In this document: positions 31,301 through 61,100 of the stretch, in pieces
Numbering within the stretch: the stretch's first letter is position 1
Layout of the letters: the number at the start of each line of letters is the position of its first letter
Origin: Amia ocellicauda
Lineage: Eukaryota > Chordata > Actinopteri > Amiiformes > Amiidae
Direction: 5' to 3'
DNA: 64,000 nucleotides
NCBI RefSeq assembly: GCF_036373705.1
Contig: NC_089869.1
Location: 9,485,176-9,549,175, forward strand
The notes under the pieces: model-generated
What the model saw: the letters and a program-made list of their open reading frames with translations, nothing else
Told to the model about the DNA's origin: nothing
The model's database searches: none
Position numbers and translations under genes: made by a program

Positions 31301-34300
31301 TCACATCTGCAGAGAAAGAGAGAAGACTTATTAGAATTTAGAGAAGTGGATTTAAATTGGACGTTTCTTCTTGGAGGTTTTCACTTTTTGAGTATAATAC
31401 ACACTAGTTAACCATCCACACACACAATGAATGTCTCACAGCAGGATCTCTGGCTGGATTTTTAGTCTCACCTGTAGAGGAGTCCTGTATAACCACTTGT
31501 CTTGGTCCCCGCTGAGTTGCATACGGGCAAAAAGCTCACGCATTGTTGGAAGACCAAACTGCTCCTGAAATGAAATATTGCACATCATTACTTTCCCACC
31601 AAACCTCTCCCCAAAAAAAGTCTCCAATCAAATGGTGATTTTAACTACCACGGCAGTCTTACCTGTGCTCTCTTGCGCACCAGCCACTTGTCCTCCTTTG
31701 TGCTGGTGTGGCCCTGCGTCTCTGCGTGGCCCTGGGTCTCTGGGTGGCCCTGGGGGGCGGGGGTGCTGGGCGTCTGTGCAGGCAGGACCCAGCTGTCAAG
31801 GCGCAGTGAGCTGTGGAAGGGGCTCTTGTACTCAGAGCTCTGCTCTTCGCGGCTGGCCTTCTCCTGGCCCTGGGAATGAGGGGACAGCCAGGCAGGGAGA
31901 GGGGATGTTGAGGGGGTGCCCTTCTTGCTGGGGTGCAGCCAGCTGTCCAGGATGGCCTCCACCATGTGATGCTGGAACGGCACGGGCAGCCTGTTCTTAT
32001 CCGCCGGTACCCCGTTCTTGTCGCGCCCCTCCTGCTTGAGCAGCCAGGAGCAGAGGGCCTCCTTGCCGCAGTTCTCCTCGCACACGCACTCCGAGAGGCT
32101 CCCGCAGGGCTCGTTGGCCTTGCACACCTGCTCCACCTGGACCGGGGGGGGTGGCAGGAGCCATGCTTCACTAGAGCCGGAGGGGGCCGGGGCAGGGGCA
32201 GGGGCAGGGGCGGGGACGGGGACGGGGGCGGGGGCGGGGGCGGGGCTCTGTTTCAGGCACTTCAGTTTGCCGAGGTTCTCGATCTCCACCGCCTGGGTGC
32301 GGGTGCCACAGCAGGAGCCGCAGTTGGCCTCAGAGCGGCGCAGCCAATCGCTGGGGGAGAAGCGCTCGGAAAAGGGCTGGAGGACTACCTTCCACTTGTC
32401 ATCCAGCGGGGAACTCTCAGGGGAATCCCACTTCTCCCCGACGGCGGGTGTCACGAGCCAATCACTGAGGTCACACTCCTGCCCCTCTTCCTCGCCCTCC
32501 TCCTCCTGTTCCTCCATGCTGAAGTTGAGCTCCGAGTCCTCGATCTTCTCGATGGATTGAGCCGAGCTGCTGGCGACACTCATGGAGCGCTCTCTAGGGG
32601 GCGCCGTCTCCTTCTGCACCCAGGCCTCTAGGTCCTTCAGCTGGCCCCAGGCCTTCTGCAAGTCAAAGGTCACAGAAGGGGTGCTCATCTGTTCAAAGGG
32701 AAAAGGAAGGAAACAAACAAAAAAGACAAAGCATGGTTAAATATACATGCATTCATAGTTTACAGATGAAACAATATGACGTCAAACAATGACAAGCCTC
32801 CGTACTGCACAGCCTCTCACCTGGACTCCCCCCTCCGATTTGAGCAGCCAGTCCTGTGGGTCGCTACTCCACTGGCATGCTACTGGACGTCTGGACGCTG
32901 GGCGGCTTCCAAGGAGCCAATCAGCAAGAGGCGATGCCAGCACAGGCTCTATCTTCTGTTGAGGACAAAAAAGCAAGTAGAGCCTGTTTAGTCCATGCTT
33001 CTCATCTACTTCTCATACAAATCAAGTCACTGAAACTAGTAACTAGCTATGCTTACCGGCTTCTTAGCAGCTATGGGGCAATTCTGGAAGAGCCAGGCAT
33101 TTTCAGAGGGGCTTGCGTTTTGTGCCGGCATGTTGGTCATGTGCTCAATCTCCTGAGAAGCAAAAACACAAAACATGCTTGTTAAAAAACTGCAAGCTCA
33201 AACGAGAAAGAAACTGCTCAATCACAGGCAGGGATGCATGATGGAAAACAATTGGGGCCCATCCCGTGCTTTAAAAGAAGTCCATAAAATGTTGAAGTTG
33301 AATTTAAATTGTGACTGCTAATGTGGTACAGACATTTTGAAATTCAATCACAGGATCTGGTTTCACATTCCATCAGTCAATCACGTTAGTTTCAGGAAAA
33401 ACAAAAGCACAGAGGGAACAGGGAACTCCCCCCCCTCCCCATCAAAACAAAGACAAACAACCTACTTCAGCACTGATCGTGCACAAAGGGAATTACCAGG
33501 GATTACAGGGACTTGGAAAGCAAAACAGAGAGATGGTTCTAATTTATCCTAGAACAACACATATCATATGACTGTGCGTTAGATTAGAAGGGAGAGGAGA
33601 TCAGGTTGTGATAATTTAAGTAGCAGTGGGTGTGTGTGTGGAATTGAAGCCCACACACTACATGAGTAAGCAGCTCCTGGAGGCTGGAGTGGACTGCTGA
33701 CGTGTCTGTACTCGAAGGACAGTGAGCTGTCCGCTGTGGAGAGTGCCACCGTACCTGTGTGGCGATTGTCCCGAAGGAAGTGATGGCCTTCCGCAGAGAT
33801 CGAACGTCGGCTTGGAAACTCATCTCCGGAGTCTCTTCCGGTGTCAGGTTCAGACTGGACAACCTGCATAGGGAAATAGAGGCGTTAGTCAGGACATTGG
33901 CCACTGCTTCAGGGGATAGTAGGATTTCATACTTTACAGCTCACAGTAAAAGTGCTTACTTCTCCAGACAGCAGGTGATCTGATTGGCCAGGTCGTTGCT
34001 GTTGGAATTCTCCAGCTGGTGAATGAGGATGTTGAACTGACCCAGGAGCTGAAATGCAGGGAAAGAGCGAGAGAAACAGGTTACACCTCAGGTAGCGTTT
34101 AAAGCGATCAACTAGAAGATTGAGCTGAAACTCTGACCAACTGACTCACCCAATGGAGTTGTTGGAGCTGCTGCTGAAGGGCCTCCTCTTTGAGATGCTG
34201 GACGATCTCAATCTGCTCAAGCAGCCAGACTTCCCGAGAGCGCAGGAACTCCAGATGCCGGCTGATACAACTGTGGAGCTGAGACTTCACCTACACAGAG

Positions 34301-47867: not shown

Positions 47868-47998
47868 CTCCCAAATGCTTTTTTTCTACATTACATATAT
47901 AATTGTTTATCGGATTGCAAACAAACAGCCGGTTTTAATGGAAACACATTGCGGTTCAATTCATATCGTTTAATGCGTAATTCCCCAGCAGGCAAAAT

Positions 47999-48290
47999 AC
48001 ATTAGAAACAACGTTGTTTCAACGTCATATTCCAACGTTGACTATACATTGAAAATGGATTGGATTTGCAAATGGAATCGACGTGGAATTTTCAACGGTG
48101 ATTCAACGTTGGATCAACTTCGAATAATCTACGTTGATTCCAGGTTAGATAGGCAACGTTGAAATTTCATTGAAAATTGGTTGTATTTGCAACTTGAAAA
48201 TTCAACGTCGATTCCATTTGCAAATCCAATCCATTTTCAATGTATAGTCAACGTTGGAATATGACGTTGAAACAACGTTGTTTCTAATGT
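47999..48290. repeat. 96-bp near-perfect inverted repeat (hairpin)
   Basis: The left arm 47999-48094 and right arm 48195-48290 are complementary with about one mismatch. Each contains AACAACGTTGTTTCAACGTC, itself partly self-complementary, and TGGATTTGCAAATGGAATCG. A degraded third copy of one arm follows at about 48300-48390. Confidence 0.9.
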
Positions 48291-48410
48291 AATCTAATGT
48301 ATACAACATTGAAATTTAGTTGGATGTAAATTGGATGTATTTGCAAATGGAATCGATGTCGAATTGTCAACATTCCTTCAACATCAATTTAATCAGCAAA
48401 GGCAAATAAC

Positions 48411-48414
<4 letters not shown>

Positions 48415-48464
<50 letters not shown>
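48415..48464. repeat. (GA)n microsatellite
   Basis: About 24 uninterrupted GA units inside the CAACGTT element. Confidence 0.95.
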
Positions 48465-48467
<3 letters not shown>

Positions 48468-48862
48468 GAGTTAATCTGGGGGGAGAAGATAAGAAAACAA
48501 CTAAAATACACTTTATTTGTGTTAACTATACAAAAACAGTAGAGGAAAAAAAAAAGAAAAAACTCCAAACATCGTCATAGTACTATTAACACATTATTTG
48601 AATTGTATATTAAACCTGAAAAACAGATTTTAAAAAGGCTATTAAAAAAAAAAAATACACTTTTATACACACCTACAGTTTTTCCAATGTTTTATACAGG
48701 AGTCCAGTTGAATTAAAGTTGAAGTTAAATAAAAACTATGCACCGACATTTATCAAATGTCATCAACGGTCACTGATAAAACATTTTAATTGTAGTTACT
48801 ATTTTGATAATAAATTTGATTAATGCACACATAATACAATTTTGTTATCCTGCACTGAAATA

Positions 48863-50083
48863 CACTCTCCTAAAGGATTATTAGGAACACCATACTAATA
48901 CTGTGTTTGACCCCCTTTCGCCTTCAGAACTGCCTTAATTCTACGTGGCATTGATTCAACAAGGTGCTGAAAGCATTCTTTAGAAATGTTGGCCCATATT
49001 GATAGGATAGCATCTTGCAGTTGATGGAGATTTGTGGGATGCACATCCGGGGCACGAAGCTCCCGTTCCACCACATCCCAAAGATGCTCTATTGGGTTGA
49101 GATCTGGTGATTGTGGGGGCCAGTTTAGTACAGTGAACTCATTGTCATGTTCAAGAAACCAATTTGAAATGATTCGACCTTTGTGACATGGTGAATTATC
49201 CTGCTGGAAGTAGCCATCAGAGGATGGGTACATGGTGGTCATAAAGAGATGGACATGGTCAGAAACAATGCTCAGGTAGGCCGTGGCATTTAAACGATGC
49301 CCAATTGGCACTAAGGGGCCTAAAGTGTGCCAAGAAAACATCCCCCACACCATTACACCACCACCACCAGCCTGCACAGTGGTAACAAGGCATGATGGAT
49401 CCATGTTCTCATTCTGTTTACGCCAAATTCTGACTCTACCATCTGAATGTCTCAACAGACATCGAGACTCATCAGACCAGGCAACATTTTTCCAGTCTTC
49501 AACTGTCCAATTTTGGTGAGCTTGTGCAAATTGTAGCCTCTTTTTCCTATTTGTAGTGGAGATGAGTGGTACCCGGTGGGGTCTTCTGCTGTTGTAGCCC
49601 ATCCGCCTCAAGGTTGTACGTGTTGTGGCTTCACAAATGCTTTGCTGCATACCTCGGTTGTAACGAGTGGTTATTTCAGTCAAAGTTGCTCTTCTATCGG
49701 CTTGAATCAGTCGGCCCATTCTCCTCTGACCTCTAGCATCAACAAGGCATTTTCGCCCACAGGACTGCCGCATACTGGATGTTTTTCCCTTTTCACACCA
49801 TTCTTTGTAAACCCTAGAAATGGTTGTGCGTGAAAATCCCAGTAACTGAGCAGATTGTGAAATACTCAGACCGGCCCGTCTGGCACCAACAACCATGCCA
49901 CGCTCAAAATTGCTTAAATCACCTTTCTTTCCCATTCAGACATTCAGTTTGGAGTTCAGGAGATTGTCTTGACCAGGACCACACCCCTCAATGCATTGAA
50001 GCAACTGCCATGTGATTGGTTGGTTAGATAATTGCATTAATGAGAAATTGAACAGGTGTTCCTAATAATCCTTTAGGTGAGTG
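48863..50083 (-). mobile_element. Complete Tc1/mariner transposon, 1221 bp
   Basis: The inverted ends match as CACTCTCCTAAAGGATTATT (left) and CACTCACCTAAAGGATTATT (right, read inwards), continuing AGGAACACC. TA is duplicated on both sides (48861-48862 and 50084-50085). A single uninterrupted transposase frame fills the interior. This is the structure of an autonomous element, and it sits inside the CAACGTT element. Confidence 0.93.
48895..49935 (-). CDS. Tc1-like transposase, apparently intact (346 aa)
   Basis: ATG at 49935 opens a 346-residue frame without a stop, the usual Tc1 transposase length. Residues about 1-120 hold two helix-turn-helix parts (ISQSAQLLGFSRTTISRVYK; ATLTEITTRYNR) joined by a basic linker with GRRxH-like NSRRPH. 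The catalytic triad is visible: Asp in WSDESRC, Asp in YFQQDNSPCH, and Glu in SPDLNPIEHLWD. That is the DD34E spacing of Tc1. The Gly-rich AGGGGVMVWG box and the C-terminal ESMPRR(I)KAVLKAKGG are also present. It cuts and pastes the element at TA sites in the nucleus. I see no missing key residue, so activity is possible but unproven. Confidence 0.93.
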   Translation of the reverse strand: MGKKGDLSNFERGMVVGARRAGLSISQSAQLLGFSRTTISRVYKEWCEKGKTSSMRQSCGRKCLVDARGQRRMGRLIQADRRATLTEITTRYNRGMQQSICEATTRTTLRRMGYNSRRPHRVPLISTTNRKKRLQFAQAHQNWTVEDWKNVAWSDESRCLLRHSDGRVRIWRKQNENMDPSCLVTTVQAGGGGVMVWGMFSWHTLGPLVPIGHRLNATAYLSIVSDHVHLFMTTMYPSSDGYFQQDNSPCHKGRIISNWFLEHDNEFTVLNWPPQSPDLNPIEHLWDVVERELRAPDVHPTNLHQLQDAILSIWANISKECFQHLVESMPRRIKAVLKAKGGQTQY

Positions 50084-50396
50084 TATGTATGCATATTAAC
50101 GGATATATATGTCTGCTGTATATATATGTGTTTTATTTATTAAGGGGAATTTTGCGCATTTTTTTACCGTGTCACTCAAAATACACCCATGAAAAATGTA
50201 CTGTCTGGGGAAATACATTTGTTTGAGAGGATATTGTGATTGTTATTTGGTGGTCTGTTTGATTGTTTTGACTATCAACCTGAAAGCAACGTATATTTCG
50301 ACGTGTTGAATAGCAGTTGTATTCTTGTTGATCCGCGTCGCAACTAGATTTCAACCACGAAACAACGTGGAAATGACGTCGAGTGCTGCGTAATTC

Positions 50397-50945
50397 GGAT
50401 TAGTCCCTACGCGTCGCGCTCAGTTTCACAGCGCATTGACAGCTGATGAGCGCAGCGCTGTCACTGCAGTCAGACACTGTGTTCACACTGCAGACTCGAC
50501 CAATACCGTCACTGAAGACAAGTGTGCGCTGCTTCACTAGCACTCACTCGCCTCTGCGTTTTTCTGTGCACATGTGAGCGACATCACCAGTGCATGTGCG
50601 CACATATGGCTGATAGACGTGGCAGAGAGTGAAATGAATACAGTCCAGTCGTCTGAGCTATACTGTCGGTGCCGGTATTTTATTTTGCGTGGCTTGAGAT
50701 GCGTCACTCATGACGCGTTTCTCCGCCCAGGGCCGCTGCGCTCATATTGACAGACAGGCCGCATTGAACACTTTCAAACACGGGTGCAAGTTTACACCGG
50801 CCCAGCAGCGTCACATATTAGTTGAGGCGGCCCTGGGCCAGATGCGTCCTTTCCCCGAGACAGCGGAGGAGATCCGCGAGCGAACTGTGCCCCACACGTC
50901 ACCATGGCGACGTGAACGCTATGACGTCACACTGGGTCCCGATAC
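50397..50945. other. Upstream region of the kinase gene
   Basis: CpG-containing sequence with a CCAAT box near 50498. A 79-codon ATG-started frame (50710-50949) reads HGCKFTPAQQRHILVEAA and similar. I do not recognise a family, and it overlaps the presumed promoter, so I do not call it a gene. Confidence 0.45.
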
Positions 50946-50952
50946 ATAAATA
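50922..50952 (+). promoter_or_regulatory. CRE plus TATA-like promoter of the intronless kinase
   Basis: A perfect cAMP-response element, TGACGTCA (50922-50929), lies 16 bases before a TATA-like ATAAATA (50946-50952). A start near 50975-50985 would be expected. An in-frame stop (TAG at 50951) and no other ATG before 51059 fix the start codon. Confidence 0.55.
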
Positions 50953-51058
50953 GCGCTGCTTGAGCCGAAGCATTCAGATCGTGAGCTCACCTGACAGAGT
51001 TGACGACCCACGACACGCCTTAGCGACCCGCCTGTTCTTGGACCATCTACCAGAGAAA

Positions 51059-52576
51059 ATGTTTTTTCCGGGGAGAATCCTGCCGCTAGTTTTTCCAGCA
51101 GCGCTGGTGCTTATGGGCTGGTATTGGTATAAGTCGCGCAAGAACAAGCCCGACCCCAGTACTGACACGGAGGAATGTGCTGGAAAGGAGCTGCAAAAAA
51201 CACACAGCCCAGCGGCCTCCTCCAGCGAAGGCAGCCACGCCCTTGAGAAAAGCTGCCCCCTTGTGATTGAACCTGTGAGCAGGACGGCCAAGGACAGGAC
51301 GACACAGGAGGATGCAGAGGAGCATTTGGACTCCCTGAATGACCCTGTAGATCTGGAGGAGGAGTTTGAAGATCTGGAAGAGAATGAACGTCTGGAGGTC
51401 GAGTTTGAACGTCTGCAGAAGGAGGAGAATGAACGCCTGGAGATGCAGGAGTTTGAGCAGCTGGAGAAGGAGGTGGATGAATGGCTGGAAATGCAGGAGC
51501 TTGAAGACCTGGAGGAGTTTGAAGATCTGGAGAAGCTTCTCGAAGACGGTTTAGACCCCAAACTCCCACAGCCAGATGTGACGGGGCAATTTCATTGCTG
51601 TCTGGAGGATTTCAAATGTGTCGCTGTTCTAGGGCGCGGCGCATTTGGAAAGGTGCTGCTTGCGGAGTCAAGAAGAACCACACAAAGATTTGCCCTCAAG
51701 GCCATTCAAAAAAGAGGGGTTGTTGACAGTCAAGATGTTAGAAGCCTCATGTGTGAGAGGAGTGTCTTACAGACTGTGAGCAGCGTGCACCACCCTTTCT
51801 TTGTGAACTTCTACGGCTCCTTCCAGACTGAGGAGCACTTGGTCTTCATCATGGAGTACGTCGCAGGGGGAGACCTCACGCTGGACGGAGAAGCGATCTC
51901 AGAGCCCCGGGCTGTATTCAGTGCTGCTTGTGTGGTGCTGGGGGTGGATTTCCTGCACAGGCACAACATCGCACACAGGGATCTGAAGCTGCCCAACCTG
52001 CTGATGGACAGACGAGGCTTCGTGAAGATTGCGGACTTCGGTCTGTGCAAGGAAGATATGGGTGTAGGTGACCGGACGAGTTCGTTCTGCGGGACTCCAG
52101 ACTTCCTCGCTCCAGAAGTCCTGTCGGAGGAGTCCTACACCCGTGCAGTTGATTGGTGGGCACTGGGGGTCCTGCTCTTTGAGATGATGGTGGGCGAGTG
52201 TCCTTTTGCCGGAGCCAATGAGCGGGATCTGTACGAGAGTATCGTGAATGATCCAGTGCCATTCCCCCAGCACCTGTCAAAAGAAGCAGTCTCCGTCATG
52301 ACAAGGCTGATGAGCAAGAATCCTGCTTGGCGGCTCGGGGCTGGAGAGCGAGGCGCCCAAGAAGTGATGCAGCACGCCTTCTTCAGGAGCGTGGACTGGC
52401 CTGGGCTGGAGGCACAGAGGGTAACGCCTCCATTTGTGCCCAACGTCAGAAAGCACAAGGATGTGGGTGATGAATTAACATCCGAAGCCCCAGTCCTCAG
52501 TCTTGGCTCCAGGGTCCTCAGCCCGGAGGAGCAGGACTTGTTCCAGGAGTTTGACTTTGTCGTGGACTGGTATTAA
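51059..52576 (+). CDS. Membrane-anchored PKN-like AGC serine/threonine kinase, intronless (505 aa)
   Basis: One uninterrupted frame. ATG 51059 is the first after the promoter-like elements; an earlier TTG at 50960 is not a start. Residues 6-24 are a hydrophobic anchor (ILPLVFPAALVLMGWYWY) followed by basic KSRKNK. Residues 98-162 are an acidic, heptad-like LE-rich coil (LEEEFEDLEENERLEVEFER and on). The kinase domain is about 185-443: Gly loop LGRGAFGKV (192-197), Lys214, Glu233, catalytic HRDLKLPN (Asp308), DFG (327), APE (351). The AGC tail ends FQEFDFVVDWY, the PKN-type hydrophobic motif with Asp in place of a phospho-Ser. Closest family by eye is protein kinase N. The HR1 and C2 parts of PKN are absent. 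Oddities are HRDLKLPN (PKN: YRDLKLDN), CGTPDF (PKN: CGTPEF) and Ser342 at the activation-loop Thr site. It is probably an expressed retrogene-derived kinase; substrate unknown. Confidence 0.85.
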   Translation: MFFPGRILPLVFPAALVLMGWYWYKSRKNKPDPSTDTEECAGKELQKTHSPAASSSEGSHALEKSCPLVIEPVSRTAKDRTTQEDAEEHLDSLNDPVDLEEEFEDLEENERLEVEFERLQKEENERLEMQEFEQLEKEVDEWLEMQELEDLEEFEDLEKLLEDGLDPKLPQPDVTGQFHCCLEDFKCVAVLGRGAFGKVLLAESRRTTQRFALKAIQKRGVVDSQDVRSLMCERSVLQTVSSVHHPFFVNFYGSFQTEEHLVFIMEYVAGGDLTLDGEAISEPRAVFSAACVVLGVDFLHRHNIAHRDLKLPNLLMDRRGFVKIADFGLCKEDMGVGDRTSSFCGTPDFLAPEVLSEESYTRAVDWWALGVLLFEMMVGECPFAGANERDLYESIVNDPVPFPQHLSKEAVSVMTRLMSKNPAWRLGAGERGAQEVMQHAFFRSVDWPGLEAQRVTPPFVPNVRKHKDVGDELTSEAPVLSLGSRVLSPEEQDLFQEFDFVVDWY

Positions 52577-52795
52577 CTGCCACTGGAGAGATGCCAACAC
52601 TGGAACAAAGAATGACCCCAGGCAGCCCCATCCCGATTCCAGGACACCGCCTTCTCAGAGGGACCTCATCTCCGCCAGCACTGGAAGAAGATTTTAGCTG
52701 TGGAGGAGAGCACCAATAAGAAAACACATGTGGACCATCAAACAATTAGTGATCGAAATCAAACAAGATAATTGACTGTAAAAAATTGGAAGTTG

Positions 52796-52801
52796 AATAA
52801 A
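52796..52801 (+). terminator. Kinase polyadenylation signal AATAAA (first of two)
   Basis: AATAAA lies 220 bases after the stop codon. A second AATAAA is at 53195-53200. Either could end the transcript. Confidence 0.5.
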
Positions 52802-58140: not shown

Positions 58141-61100
58141 CTGTCCACATTGAATTTCATCTTCCAGGTGTCGGCCCACAACTGAATGTTATCTAAGCCC
58201 CTTTGAATAGCCTGTGCTGCCGAGATTGTATCTGCTGTGCCACCTATTTTAGTATCATCAGCAAACTTGTCAACTTTGCCAACTATCCCAGAGTCCAGAT
58301 CATTAATATAGATTAGAAAAAGCAAAGGCCCTAGTACTGATCCCTGTGGAACTCCAATAACAACCTCACTCCAGTTAGAAGCGACTCCTCTAATCGACAC
58401 CCTCTGTTTCCTATACATCAGCCAGTTCATAATGAATCTACTTACATTACCCTGAATGCCTACAGCTTCCAATTTGAGGAGCAGTCTTTGGTGTGGAACC
58501 TTATCAAAAGTATATCATATCATATGCTTTTACATGATCTACAGCTGCAGTTGCGTGTTCAAAAAATTCTAATAAATTAGTAAGACATGATCTGCCTCAT
58601 CTAAACCCATGTTGACTATCTCCAAGAATATGGTTTTCATTAAGATCTCTATTTTCTGTCTAATCATTTTTTACAACATTTTACAGGTGATGCAGGTGAG
58701 ACTGATTGGTCTGTAATTTCCTGGCTCAGTTTTGTCCTCTTTCTTGTGGATTGGAATGAAATTTGCTGTCTTCCATTCTGTTGGTACATCCCCTGTTCTA
58801 AGTGCCATTTGGAATATTTGACTTAGTGGCCTATAAATAATTTCCTTCATTTCTTTAATTACTGTTGGAAATATACCATCTGGCCCAGGTGATTTGTTTG
58901 TTTTTAATTCTGCTAGTCCCTTTACTATCTCCTCCTCATTTATCCTGATCTCTCTTAGGGTTTGACTGGACTGATTGTTAACCTGTGGCATGTTATCGGT
59001 CTTTTCTTTTGTAAAAACCTCTATGAAATACTCATTTAGAACATTTGCTACATCTTGTTCGTTTTCCAAGATACTTCCATTTTTGCCCTTTATCTGTTTC
59101 ACTTCCTCCCTTGTCCTCTTGCTGTTGTAGTATTGAAAAAAGCTTTTTGCATTAGTTTTAGCTCCAAGAGCTGTTTCTTTCTGTTTCCCTCTTTGCTTTC
59201 CTTATCCCTTTCTTAAGATCTCTTTGCAGCTCATCATATTCTATGTATTTTGTTTCGTCTCTGTCCCTTTTGTATGCGCTATACAACATTTTCTTCCTCT
59301 TGATTTTTTTTTGCATTTTGGCCAATGTTTTTTGGTCCTCAATTTGCTAAGTTTTGGTACAAATTTCTCCTGAGCCTCAAGTAGTATATTCTTAAAATAT
59401 ACCCATCCATTTTCAACTGAATCTGTATCCAGTGTGCTCCAGTCTACCTCTTCTAAGTGCCGCCTCATACCTTCAAGGTTTGCTTTTCTGAAATTGTAGA
59501 CCATCGTTTTAGACTTGGGCCTTGTTTTTTGAAAGAATGCCTCAAAGCTAACCATGTTGTGATCACAATTTGCCATTGGTTCTCTAACTAGTGTCCCTCT
59601 GACTCTATCTTGGTCATTTGAAAAAATAAAGTCAATGCATGCACTCTTCCTGGTTGGTTCCCTGACAAATTGAGTTAGAAAGCAGTCTCAACCATCTCAA
59701 CCATTTCTATTTCTGCTTCTGTAGTCCCAACCGGGCTTTCCCAGTCTATGTTTGGGAAATTGAAATCCCCTATTATAACAGCCACATCCTTGCTACATGC
59801 AGTCCTGATTACACTGTACAATGCAACATCTTGCTGAATAACCGAGTTGGGTGGTCTGTAACACACTCCTACCACTAATCATCTGGATCTCTTGTCCAAA
59901 AGTTTCACCCACAAAGATTCTGTTCCATTACTGGGATCTAATTTTAGTTCTTCTGCCTCAATGTCATTATTCATATATAATGCTACTGCACCCCCTCTTC
60001 GATTTTGCCTGTCTCTCCTAAACTGTGTGTATCCTTCTAACTTGTATTCATCCCCATCGTTTTCTGTAAGCCATGTTTCCGTCACTCCTACAACATCATA
60101 GTCACATGCCAGCACTGTGGCTTCTAAGTCCAACATCTTGTTCCTTATACTCCTGGCATTGAGGTACAAACATTTCAGGACTTTCCTACTAGCAGGTTCC
60201 CTTTGTTTCTCCCATTGTCAGAGCTCCCTGCCCCCCTGGTCCCTAGTTTAAATGATTCTCAATTTCTCTGGACATATGCTCTCCCAATGCATTAGACCCC
60301 CTTCGGTTTAGATGTAGACCGTCCGGTTTGTACAGGTCCCATCTATCCCAGAAGAAAGACCAATGCTCCATAAACCTAAACCCCTCTTCCCTACACCAAG
60401 ATTTCAACCACGTGTTAAACTTTCTAATCTCTACCGGTCTCCCTGGCCTGGCACGTGGTACCGTAAGTATTTAGGAGAAAACTACCTTGGAGGTTCTGCT
60501 TTTTAGTTTTGTTCCTAACTCTTTAAATTTGTCTTGCAGAACCTCTGTCCTACCTTTCCTATGTCATTGGTTCCAATGTGAACCATGACCAGTGGATTCC
60601 CCCCGGCTTTGGCCAGTAGCCCGTCTACTAGTTTAGGGAGATCTGCAACCTGAGCACCAGGCAGGCAAGATACCATGCAGGTCTCCTTATCACTTGAACA
60701 CCTCTGAGAATTGAGTCCCCTACTATAACTATCTCCCTGTTCTGGGGGGGAGTCAGCACCATGGTTCTCTGGTGCTCAACTGCCCCCCATCACCCTCTGA
60801 GCTGTCATTTTCCAACTCGGTGTCCAGCAGTCGGAACCTGTTGGGCAATTCTAGCTCTTGGGGTGTCTCTAGGGGTTGTGCACGGCCTTTTCTGCGGTTA
60901 CGACCCAGCAGTTTTCTACGCTGTCCTGCTCTGAGGGCTCAACTCTCCTGGGTTTTGGCATGCACACCATCTCTCTCATGGGCTGATTGACCAATTCTTC
61001 TATATCCCTAATACAGCACAGATCAACAAGCTGAGCCTCAAGATCATGAACCTTGATCTCTAGGAGTTCATCCAGGAAGGCAATCATTCTGCAAACCTGA

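Follow-up and report, generated by a model that had tools for sequence, protein, structure and literature searches.

How did a protein kinase without introns come to carry a membrane anchor and an acidic extension where its closest relatives have a regulatory half, and is the product maintained as a gene? The locus that raises this question lies in a stretch of 64,000 nucleotides of Amia ocellicauda DNA, hereafter the window (contig C26, positions 9485176–9549175, within a genome of 988 Mb in 385 contigs). An uninterrupted reading frame occupies 51059–52576 and encodes 505 aa counted from its ATG, the frame being open already from 50960. The gene and its surroundings are made up of the following parts:

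47984–50386, no strand assigned: 2.4-kb insertion with a Tc1-like element, upstream of the promoter block.
50387–51058, plus strand: promoter/5' UTR block common to multi-exon relatives.
51059–52576, plus strand: complete intronless coding sequence, 505 aa, comprising AKAP1-type anchor, acidic helix, PKN-type kinase and AGC tail (from the ORF, Pfam and 19 open C26 copies).
51059–51148, plus strand: N-terminal anchor, aa 1–30 (MFFPGRILPLVFPAALVLMGWYWYKSRKNK), homologous to the D-AKAP1 outer-mitochondrial-membrane anchor.
51059–51310, plus strand: putatively AKAP1-derived exon 1, aa 1–84, ending at the exact site of CACAGGAG/GTAAGG in a C24 multi-exon relative.
51311–51582, plus strand: acidic LE-rich segment, an exon of its own in the C24 relative L009 (TTTGCAG/GATGCAG... 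to GAC/GTATGA), predicted to form a long helix.
51620–52384, plus strand: PKN-type kinase domain, aa 188–442, with K214, E233, D308, N313 and D326, and activation-loop S342.
52385–52573, plus strand: AGC C-tail with hydrophobic motif FQEFDF (from alignment to solved relatives).
52577–52801, plus strand: 3' UTR up to AATAAA at 52796–52801, lacking three introns of the relative L010 (from L010 and partly L009).

Because the whole frame is open in 19 of the 19 near-full copies found on C26, a chance ORF is excluded. Elsewhere in the window, the minus strand holds a 347-aa frame at 31645–32688 with an ARA70 domain (2.4e-13), which we take to be an NCOA4-like gene, and a 143-aa frame at 58671–59102 that looks by eye like a reverse-transcriptase fragment and has no Pfam match at 0.001.

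The initial annotation had described a complete frame for a PKN-like AGC kinase, and domain and structure searches agree: a Pkinase match at aa 188–442 (5e-62) is the sole Pfam domain of the protein, and its best solved relatives are PKN2 (4crs, 7.6e-132, 444 bits) and PKN1 (4otd, 1.7e-121, 410 bits), with PKC isoforms well behind (1.1e-86 at best, at most 295 bits). K214, E233 and D308 had been assigned correctly as catalytic residues, but the DFG aspartate is D326, not D327. The substitutions HRDLKLPN, CGTPDF and Ser342 are all present as reported; set against PKN, the kinase has S342 for the activation-loop Thr, HRD for YRD and a 2-residue deletion after GGDLTL. Serine instead of threonine in the activation loop could reduce activation. 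The hydrophobic motif FQEFDF has an acidic residue at the phospho-position, as in PKN. In Pfam searches the window protein gave no match to HR1, KH or Tudor, and none to a C2-like domain, kinase-related families alone appearing up to E = 1. HR1 has 12 matches genome-wide (24 of 24 candidates scored), none of them at loci of the gene family described below: 11 lie at PKN loci on C7, C9:5.5 Mb and C25:13.2 Mb, and one on C2:1.19 Mb.

The anchor and acidic segment had initially been read as an N-terminus new to a retrocopy. The multi-exon relatives contradict this. L009 on C24, a pseudogene interrupted by stops, has the anchor in an exon 1 that ends ACACAGGAG/GTAAGG, and the window copy is continuous over this junction (ACACAGGAG GATGCAG). 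Exact splice junctions flank the acidic exon on either side and recur at three places in the 3' UTR, where the window lacks introns of L010 that are partly visible in L009 too (between 52577 and 52578, 52621 and 52622, and about 52687 and 52688); the kinase exons of L009 are also interrupted by introns, none of which the window copy has. Because the exons are separate in L009 and the introns have been lost exactly, the intronless form is mRNA-derived, as first proposed, and the anchor and acidic segment were carried along with it; at the level of sequence this mRNA origin is demonstrated. Further multi-exon relatives on C11, C25, C2:44 Mb and C10 have an anchor exon upstream, followed by the same kinase exons in order. 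The initial annotation had reckoned that a closest match to a full multi-exon PKN gene with the same N-terminus would tell against its reading; outside the intronless copies the closest match is indeed a multi-exon gene with that N-terminus, but not a canonical PKN.

The kinase exons of these relatives keep the intron pattern of PKN. When eight loci were compared with the same script, the PKN loci L022 and L023 and the multi-exon relative L037 agreed at 8 of 8 kinase intron positions. Seven of the eight are kept in each of L024 (one not placed), L026 (one shifted) and L028 (one on an unlikely site), six in L025 (one not placed, one on an unlikely site) and five in the pseudogene L009 (three missing or shifted).

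The source of the anchor is indicated by a different gene. Searching with the relatives' anchor exons led to C28:3648234, where a frame of 623 aa (619 counted from its ATG) starts with this anchor segment and exons downstream of this long frame match KH (4.1e-7) and Tudor (3.6e-20). By eye, this C28 gene has a helix that we take to resemble the PKA RII-binding helix. A PDB search with its Tudor piece returned 17 sequences (TDRD1, TDRKH, SND1 and fly types), none of them named AKAP1, so that the name AKAP1 for this gene rests on the anchor, one KH, the Tudor match and the long exon. Window exon 1 matches the AKAP1-like gene both as protein (41% over 94 aa) and as DNA (E = 2.7e-14), and a search of the 988 Mb with the first 107 aa of the C28 gene retrieves the window copy at 2.2e-12 and its twin at 9.69 Mb at 5.8e-13. 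At some loci the DNA homology to the C28 gene reaches beyond the ATG on its 5' side: in L026 (5e-55, with a second match of 4e-37 farther out) and L044 (1.8e-35), both with kinase exons, and in L045 (1.8e-73), where the cargo is unread. An acceptor-like CAACAG/GTGTAGC is recognisable at several family loci.

The outer-mitochondrial-membrane signal sequence of D-AKAP1 is printed in PMC4526808, PMC9256702 and PMC7967052, and with this peptide the C28 gene shares 18 identities and the window copy 13. Scored against the human peptide, the anchors of L037 and L026 are equalled by 17 and 4 of 2,000 shuffles, respectively, and a TOM20 anchor also scored above all 2,000; the 30-aa peptide alone is therefore not decisive for AKAP1. 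The donor is nevertheless most simply AKAP1, because the anchor is known from published AKAP1 constructs and the anchored kinases are seen here only. By homology, then, the anchor of the window copy is inherited and is a homologue of the mitochondrial-outer-membrane anchor of AKAP1, and the homology of the parts is likewise demonstrated by these alignments. The hydrophobic anchor followed by KSRKNK is present as initially described, and its AKAP1 homology makes the membrane tethering proposed at the time probable.

The window copy belongs to a large set. The 107-aa query from the C28 gene matches at least 135 places genome-wide, with 50 on C11, 27 on C25, 21 on C10 and 18 on C26 among the matches listed; 150 of 161 anchor candidates were scored, and all genome-search counts are minima. 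Kinase exons are known from some of the 135 places, the cargo of most being unread. Starting from the kinase instead, an AKAP1-type anchor lies within 3 kb of at least 55 of 75 sites with a kinase DNA motif, about 0.08 being expected within 4 kb; the reversed motif, used as a control, gave 0 matches against the 75. The other 20 sites have no anchor within 6 kb among the matches listed; 12 of them form the group at C2:52–60 Mb, and two (C1 and C26:11.83 Mb) do carry an anchor by other searches. By sequence, the window gene belongs, intact and without introns, to a large family of AKAP1–PKN fusion genes.

Some anchor loci show arrangements of their own. At C10:28672518–28931983, at least 21 anchor exons of equal score are spaced about 9–25 kb apart, and the one examined (L042/L047) has downstream kinase exons. 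At C25:12.06–12.73 Mb, two anchor types alternate tens of kb apart with 10 copies each, one 99–100% identical to L037 and the other 47%, as in L043. In L041 (C4:44464600–44466400), the AKAP1-type anchor opens a kinase-free frame of 264 aa at 520–1311, which continues into a coiled coil (LRRFIP match of 0.0014, below threshold), and a 289-aa frame at C4:43449215 may resemble it. From L041, the anchor may also have been shuffled onto non-kinase cargo.

The DNA upstream of the window gene also has counterparts in multi-exon relatives. The block at 50387–51058 contains, by eye, a CRE-like element, TGACGTCA, at 50922–50929 and a TATA-like element, CATAAATA, at 50945–50952. It is homologous to L009 from about 50580 (through L016), with 78% identity over 50687–51311, and the matching stretch of L009 has both TGACGTCA and TATAAAA; homology to L010 covers 50387–50472 and resumes further upstream, to 46933. 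The copy had been thought to have gained its own promoter; judged by homology to the multi-exon C24 relatives, the promoter region is kept from them, not gained. A CRE beside a TATA-like element would fit expression in germ cells, as in mammalian spermatid genes. A plain PKN retrogene that acquired both its N-terminus and its promoter at the landing site would account for an intact, intronless frame with a PKN kinase, but not for the anchor and acidic exon of the multi-exon relative or for an upstream region homologous to that of such relatives, and this origin is scarcely credible.

Two other features of the upstream DNA concern its later history. The homology edge at 50387 was considered as an mRNA 5' end common to all copies and rejected, as homology resumes at 47983, beyond the 2.4-kb insertion. 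This insertion (47984–50386) has the 10-bp direct repeat TGCGTAATTC at both flanks, is missing in 10 of the 10 other C26 copies whose upstream DNA was compared, and includes at 48860–50086 a Tc1-like element with an open 346-aa transposase frame (Pfam), 98.8% identical to a copy in L013. Downstream of it, the stretch 50543–51141 differs by only 0–1% among the C26 clusters, as against 4–10% 3' of the stop codon (window versus clusters) and 5–7% at synonymous sites. Promoter constraint was rejected as the reason, the same block being only 78% identical to C24; the stretch is likelier a recently homogenised promoter/start block.

Under the AKAP1–PKN reading, the introns could have been lost in either of two ways: a retrocopy inserted elsewhere, or a genomic copy recombined with a cDNA template. 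We lean slightly towards recombination: the upstream block and the flank to 46933 are common to the C24 and C4 relatives, and in the C9 copy, which also has the block, some 1.3 kb still separates the block from the ATG (the distance is longer in C6 and C11:7.6 Mb). On the 3' side, homology to the multi-exon relative ends near AATAAA, as a retrocopy's would, but this stop is uninformative because the two C24 relatives share no 3' flank with each other either. No poly(A) was seen after AATAAA at 52796–52801, and the insertion ends are not definable.

The segment between anchor and kinase had been described as acidic LE-rich heptads. Its acidity is confirmed (the window copy has a net charge of -26 across 67 residues); the heptads are not. 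Hydrophobic periodicity, measured on the window copy, the 7.9-Mb copy L003 and the C9 copy, peaked at 3.2 residues in the first of these (matched by 49 of 500 shuffles, P = 0.098) and at 3.25 in both L003 (P = 0.004) and C9 (P = 0.65). A heptad coiled coil was rejected, as none of the three copies has a 3.5-residue peak. AlphaFold predicts one long helix at aa 97–162 (pLDDT 72–86 over aa 101–140) in a model that is poor as a whole (mean 39.4), and the predicted acidic helix is a plausible spacer.

Whether the gene is maintained can be judged from its copies. A six-frame genome search found the 19 near-full C26 copies, all open, in three clusters:

C26:7.92–8.11 Mb: 10 copies of 485 aa.
C26:9.54 and 9.69 Mb: 2 copies of 505 aa, the one at 9.54 Mb being the window copy.
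C26:11.65–11.83 Mb: 7 copies of 450 aa.

A copy on C8 is 5'-truncated with one stop, and farther intronless relatives lie on C9 (open, 497 aa), C6 (internal deletion), C11:7.6 Mb and C22 (both broken). By NG86, dN/dS of the kinase is 0.22–0.26 between the window and the 7.9-Mb cluster (Fisher P = 4e-4), 0.31–0.33 between the window and the 11.7-Mb cluster (P = 2e-3), 0.24–0.32 between the 7.9-Mb and 11.7-Mb clusters (P = 1.4e-2), 0.20–0.22 between C26 and C9 (dS about 1.1, P = 9e-27) and 0.20 between the window and its 9.69-Mb twin, the last from 5 changes only. Ratios of about 0.20–0.33 thus answer the check for values near 1 that had been suggested. For the N-terminal part, dN/dS is 0.57–1.56 between C26 clusters (two pairs were tested, with Fisher P = 0.51 and 1.0) and 0.19–0.34 between C26 and C9, where dS of 1.6–3.2 is saturated. 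Because dN/dS is low in the kinase and high in the N-terminal part between clusters, the kinase is constrained and the linker loose. For the anchor, just 42 of 55 pairs show a pN lower than pS.

Changes within clusters are few and near neutral, averaging 2.2 nonsynonymous versus 0.89 synonymous in cluster A and 8.8 versus 4.0 in cluster C. Such ratios, together with stops or truncations in the C8, C11:7.6 Mb, C22 and C24 relatives, are what would be seen if the copies were decaying arrays, by-products of segmental duplication with no kinase function; this is quite improbable, however, given 19 of 19 open C26 copies and the low kinase dN/dS between clusters and to C9.

A tree was built from 357 columns of aligned kinase sequence, covering 23 of 36 sequences. 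It separates the C26 copies plus the C24 multi-exon genes from all others with support 100, and the intronless C9, C6, C11 and C22 genes form a clade of their own, also with support 100. Because these intronless genes form a separate clade, introns were lost at least twice. The C24 genes are nested inside the C26 copies on very short branches with supports of 50, 62 and 97, and we draw no conclusion from this nesting about the order within C26/C24.

An AKAP1-type origin does not by itself fix the present destination of the protein: a diverged anchor might now direct the kinase of the chimera to the ER or another membrane. In the C9 copy the net charge following the hydrophobic stretch is -2, and between C26 clusters the N-terminal part changes quickly. 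The window copy, by contrast, keeps G-W-x-W and SRKNK, a net charge of +3 after the hydrophobic stretch and the 13 identities with the D-AKAP1 anchor. Redirection of this kind is unlikely.

The origin that we favour, and consider probable, is therefore an amplified, exon-shuffled AKAP1–PKN chimera, of which the window holds an intronless, tandem-amplified member encoding an anchored kinase. AKAP1 DNA from upstream of the large exon, with the 5' UTR and the first 60–100 codons including the anchor, would have been joined to PKN catalytic exons, with loss of the HR1 half and retention of the kinase introns. The chimera would then have multiplied, leaving anchors beside at least 55 kinase-motif sites and at least 135 anchor matches. 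Comparison by eye suggests that the acidic helical spacer of the C24/C26 branch grew from a short linker exon, and a spliced mRNA of this branch would have removed the introns with the family's upstream region retained, the simplest routes being recombination of a genomic copy with a cDNA template or a transcript started upstream. Amplification into three C26 clusters would have followed, the copies being held by purifying selection on the kinase. In the resulting protein, the AKAP1-type anchor would insert in the outer mitochondrial membrane and place the kinase on the cytosolic side, with the acidic helix as spacer; lacking HR1, it would escape Rho gating and, if active, may act as a constitutively docked AGC kinase primed at S342.

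A broader proposal is tentative, and we hold it with less than even confidence: exon shuffling may have made a built-in AKAP kinase whose descendants, probably over 100 in number, form a family of outer-mitochondrial-membrane kinases restricted to this lineage and include two or more intronless branches that arose independently. In it, the window copy would belong to an ampliconic C26 set, its CRE/TATA promoter suggesting germ-cell expression, under copy-number-driven and perhaps conflict-driven selection on mitochondrial signalling.

AKAP1 normally keeps protein kinase A at mitochondria through protein binding. Here its anchor has apparently been fused directly to another AGC kinase and the product multiplied, a natural test of whether a kinase can acquire a new role through its location alone. 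In this one genome the exon shuffling, the loss of introns through mRNA without loss of the upstream region, and the recent amplification would all still be readable. A literature search of open-licence PMC papers found no description of an AKAP1–PKN fusion family.

Comparison with known systems places the family between two of them. With PKN (PKN1/2/3, or PRK) the window protein shares the kinase domain, the C-tail and the acidic hydrophobic-motif residue, and the multi-exon relatives share the kinase introns; PKN, however, has a regulatory half with HR1, where the family has an AKAP1-type anchor. With AKAP1 (D-AKAP1, AKAP121/149) it shares the N-terminal anchor and about the first 84–107 codons, and some relatives share upstream DNA too, but AKAP1 has KH and Tudor domains and recruits PKA, whereas the window protein has no KH or Tudor match and a kinase of its own. 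Among lineage-expanded fish kinases, the zebrafish PIM kinases also come in many near-identical tandem copies; the AKAP1–PKN genes differ in stemming from another kinase family and in carrying a mitochondrial-type anchor. In DNAJ-PKAc of fibrolamellar carcinoma (PMC6533061), a foreign N-terminal segment likewise gives an AGC kinase a new property; compared with that fusion, the AKAP1–PKN fusion is germline, multi-copy and under purifying selection.
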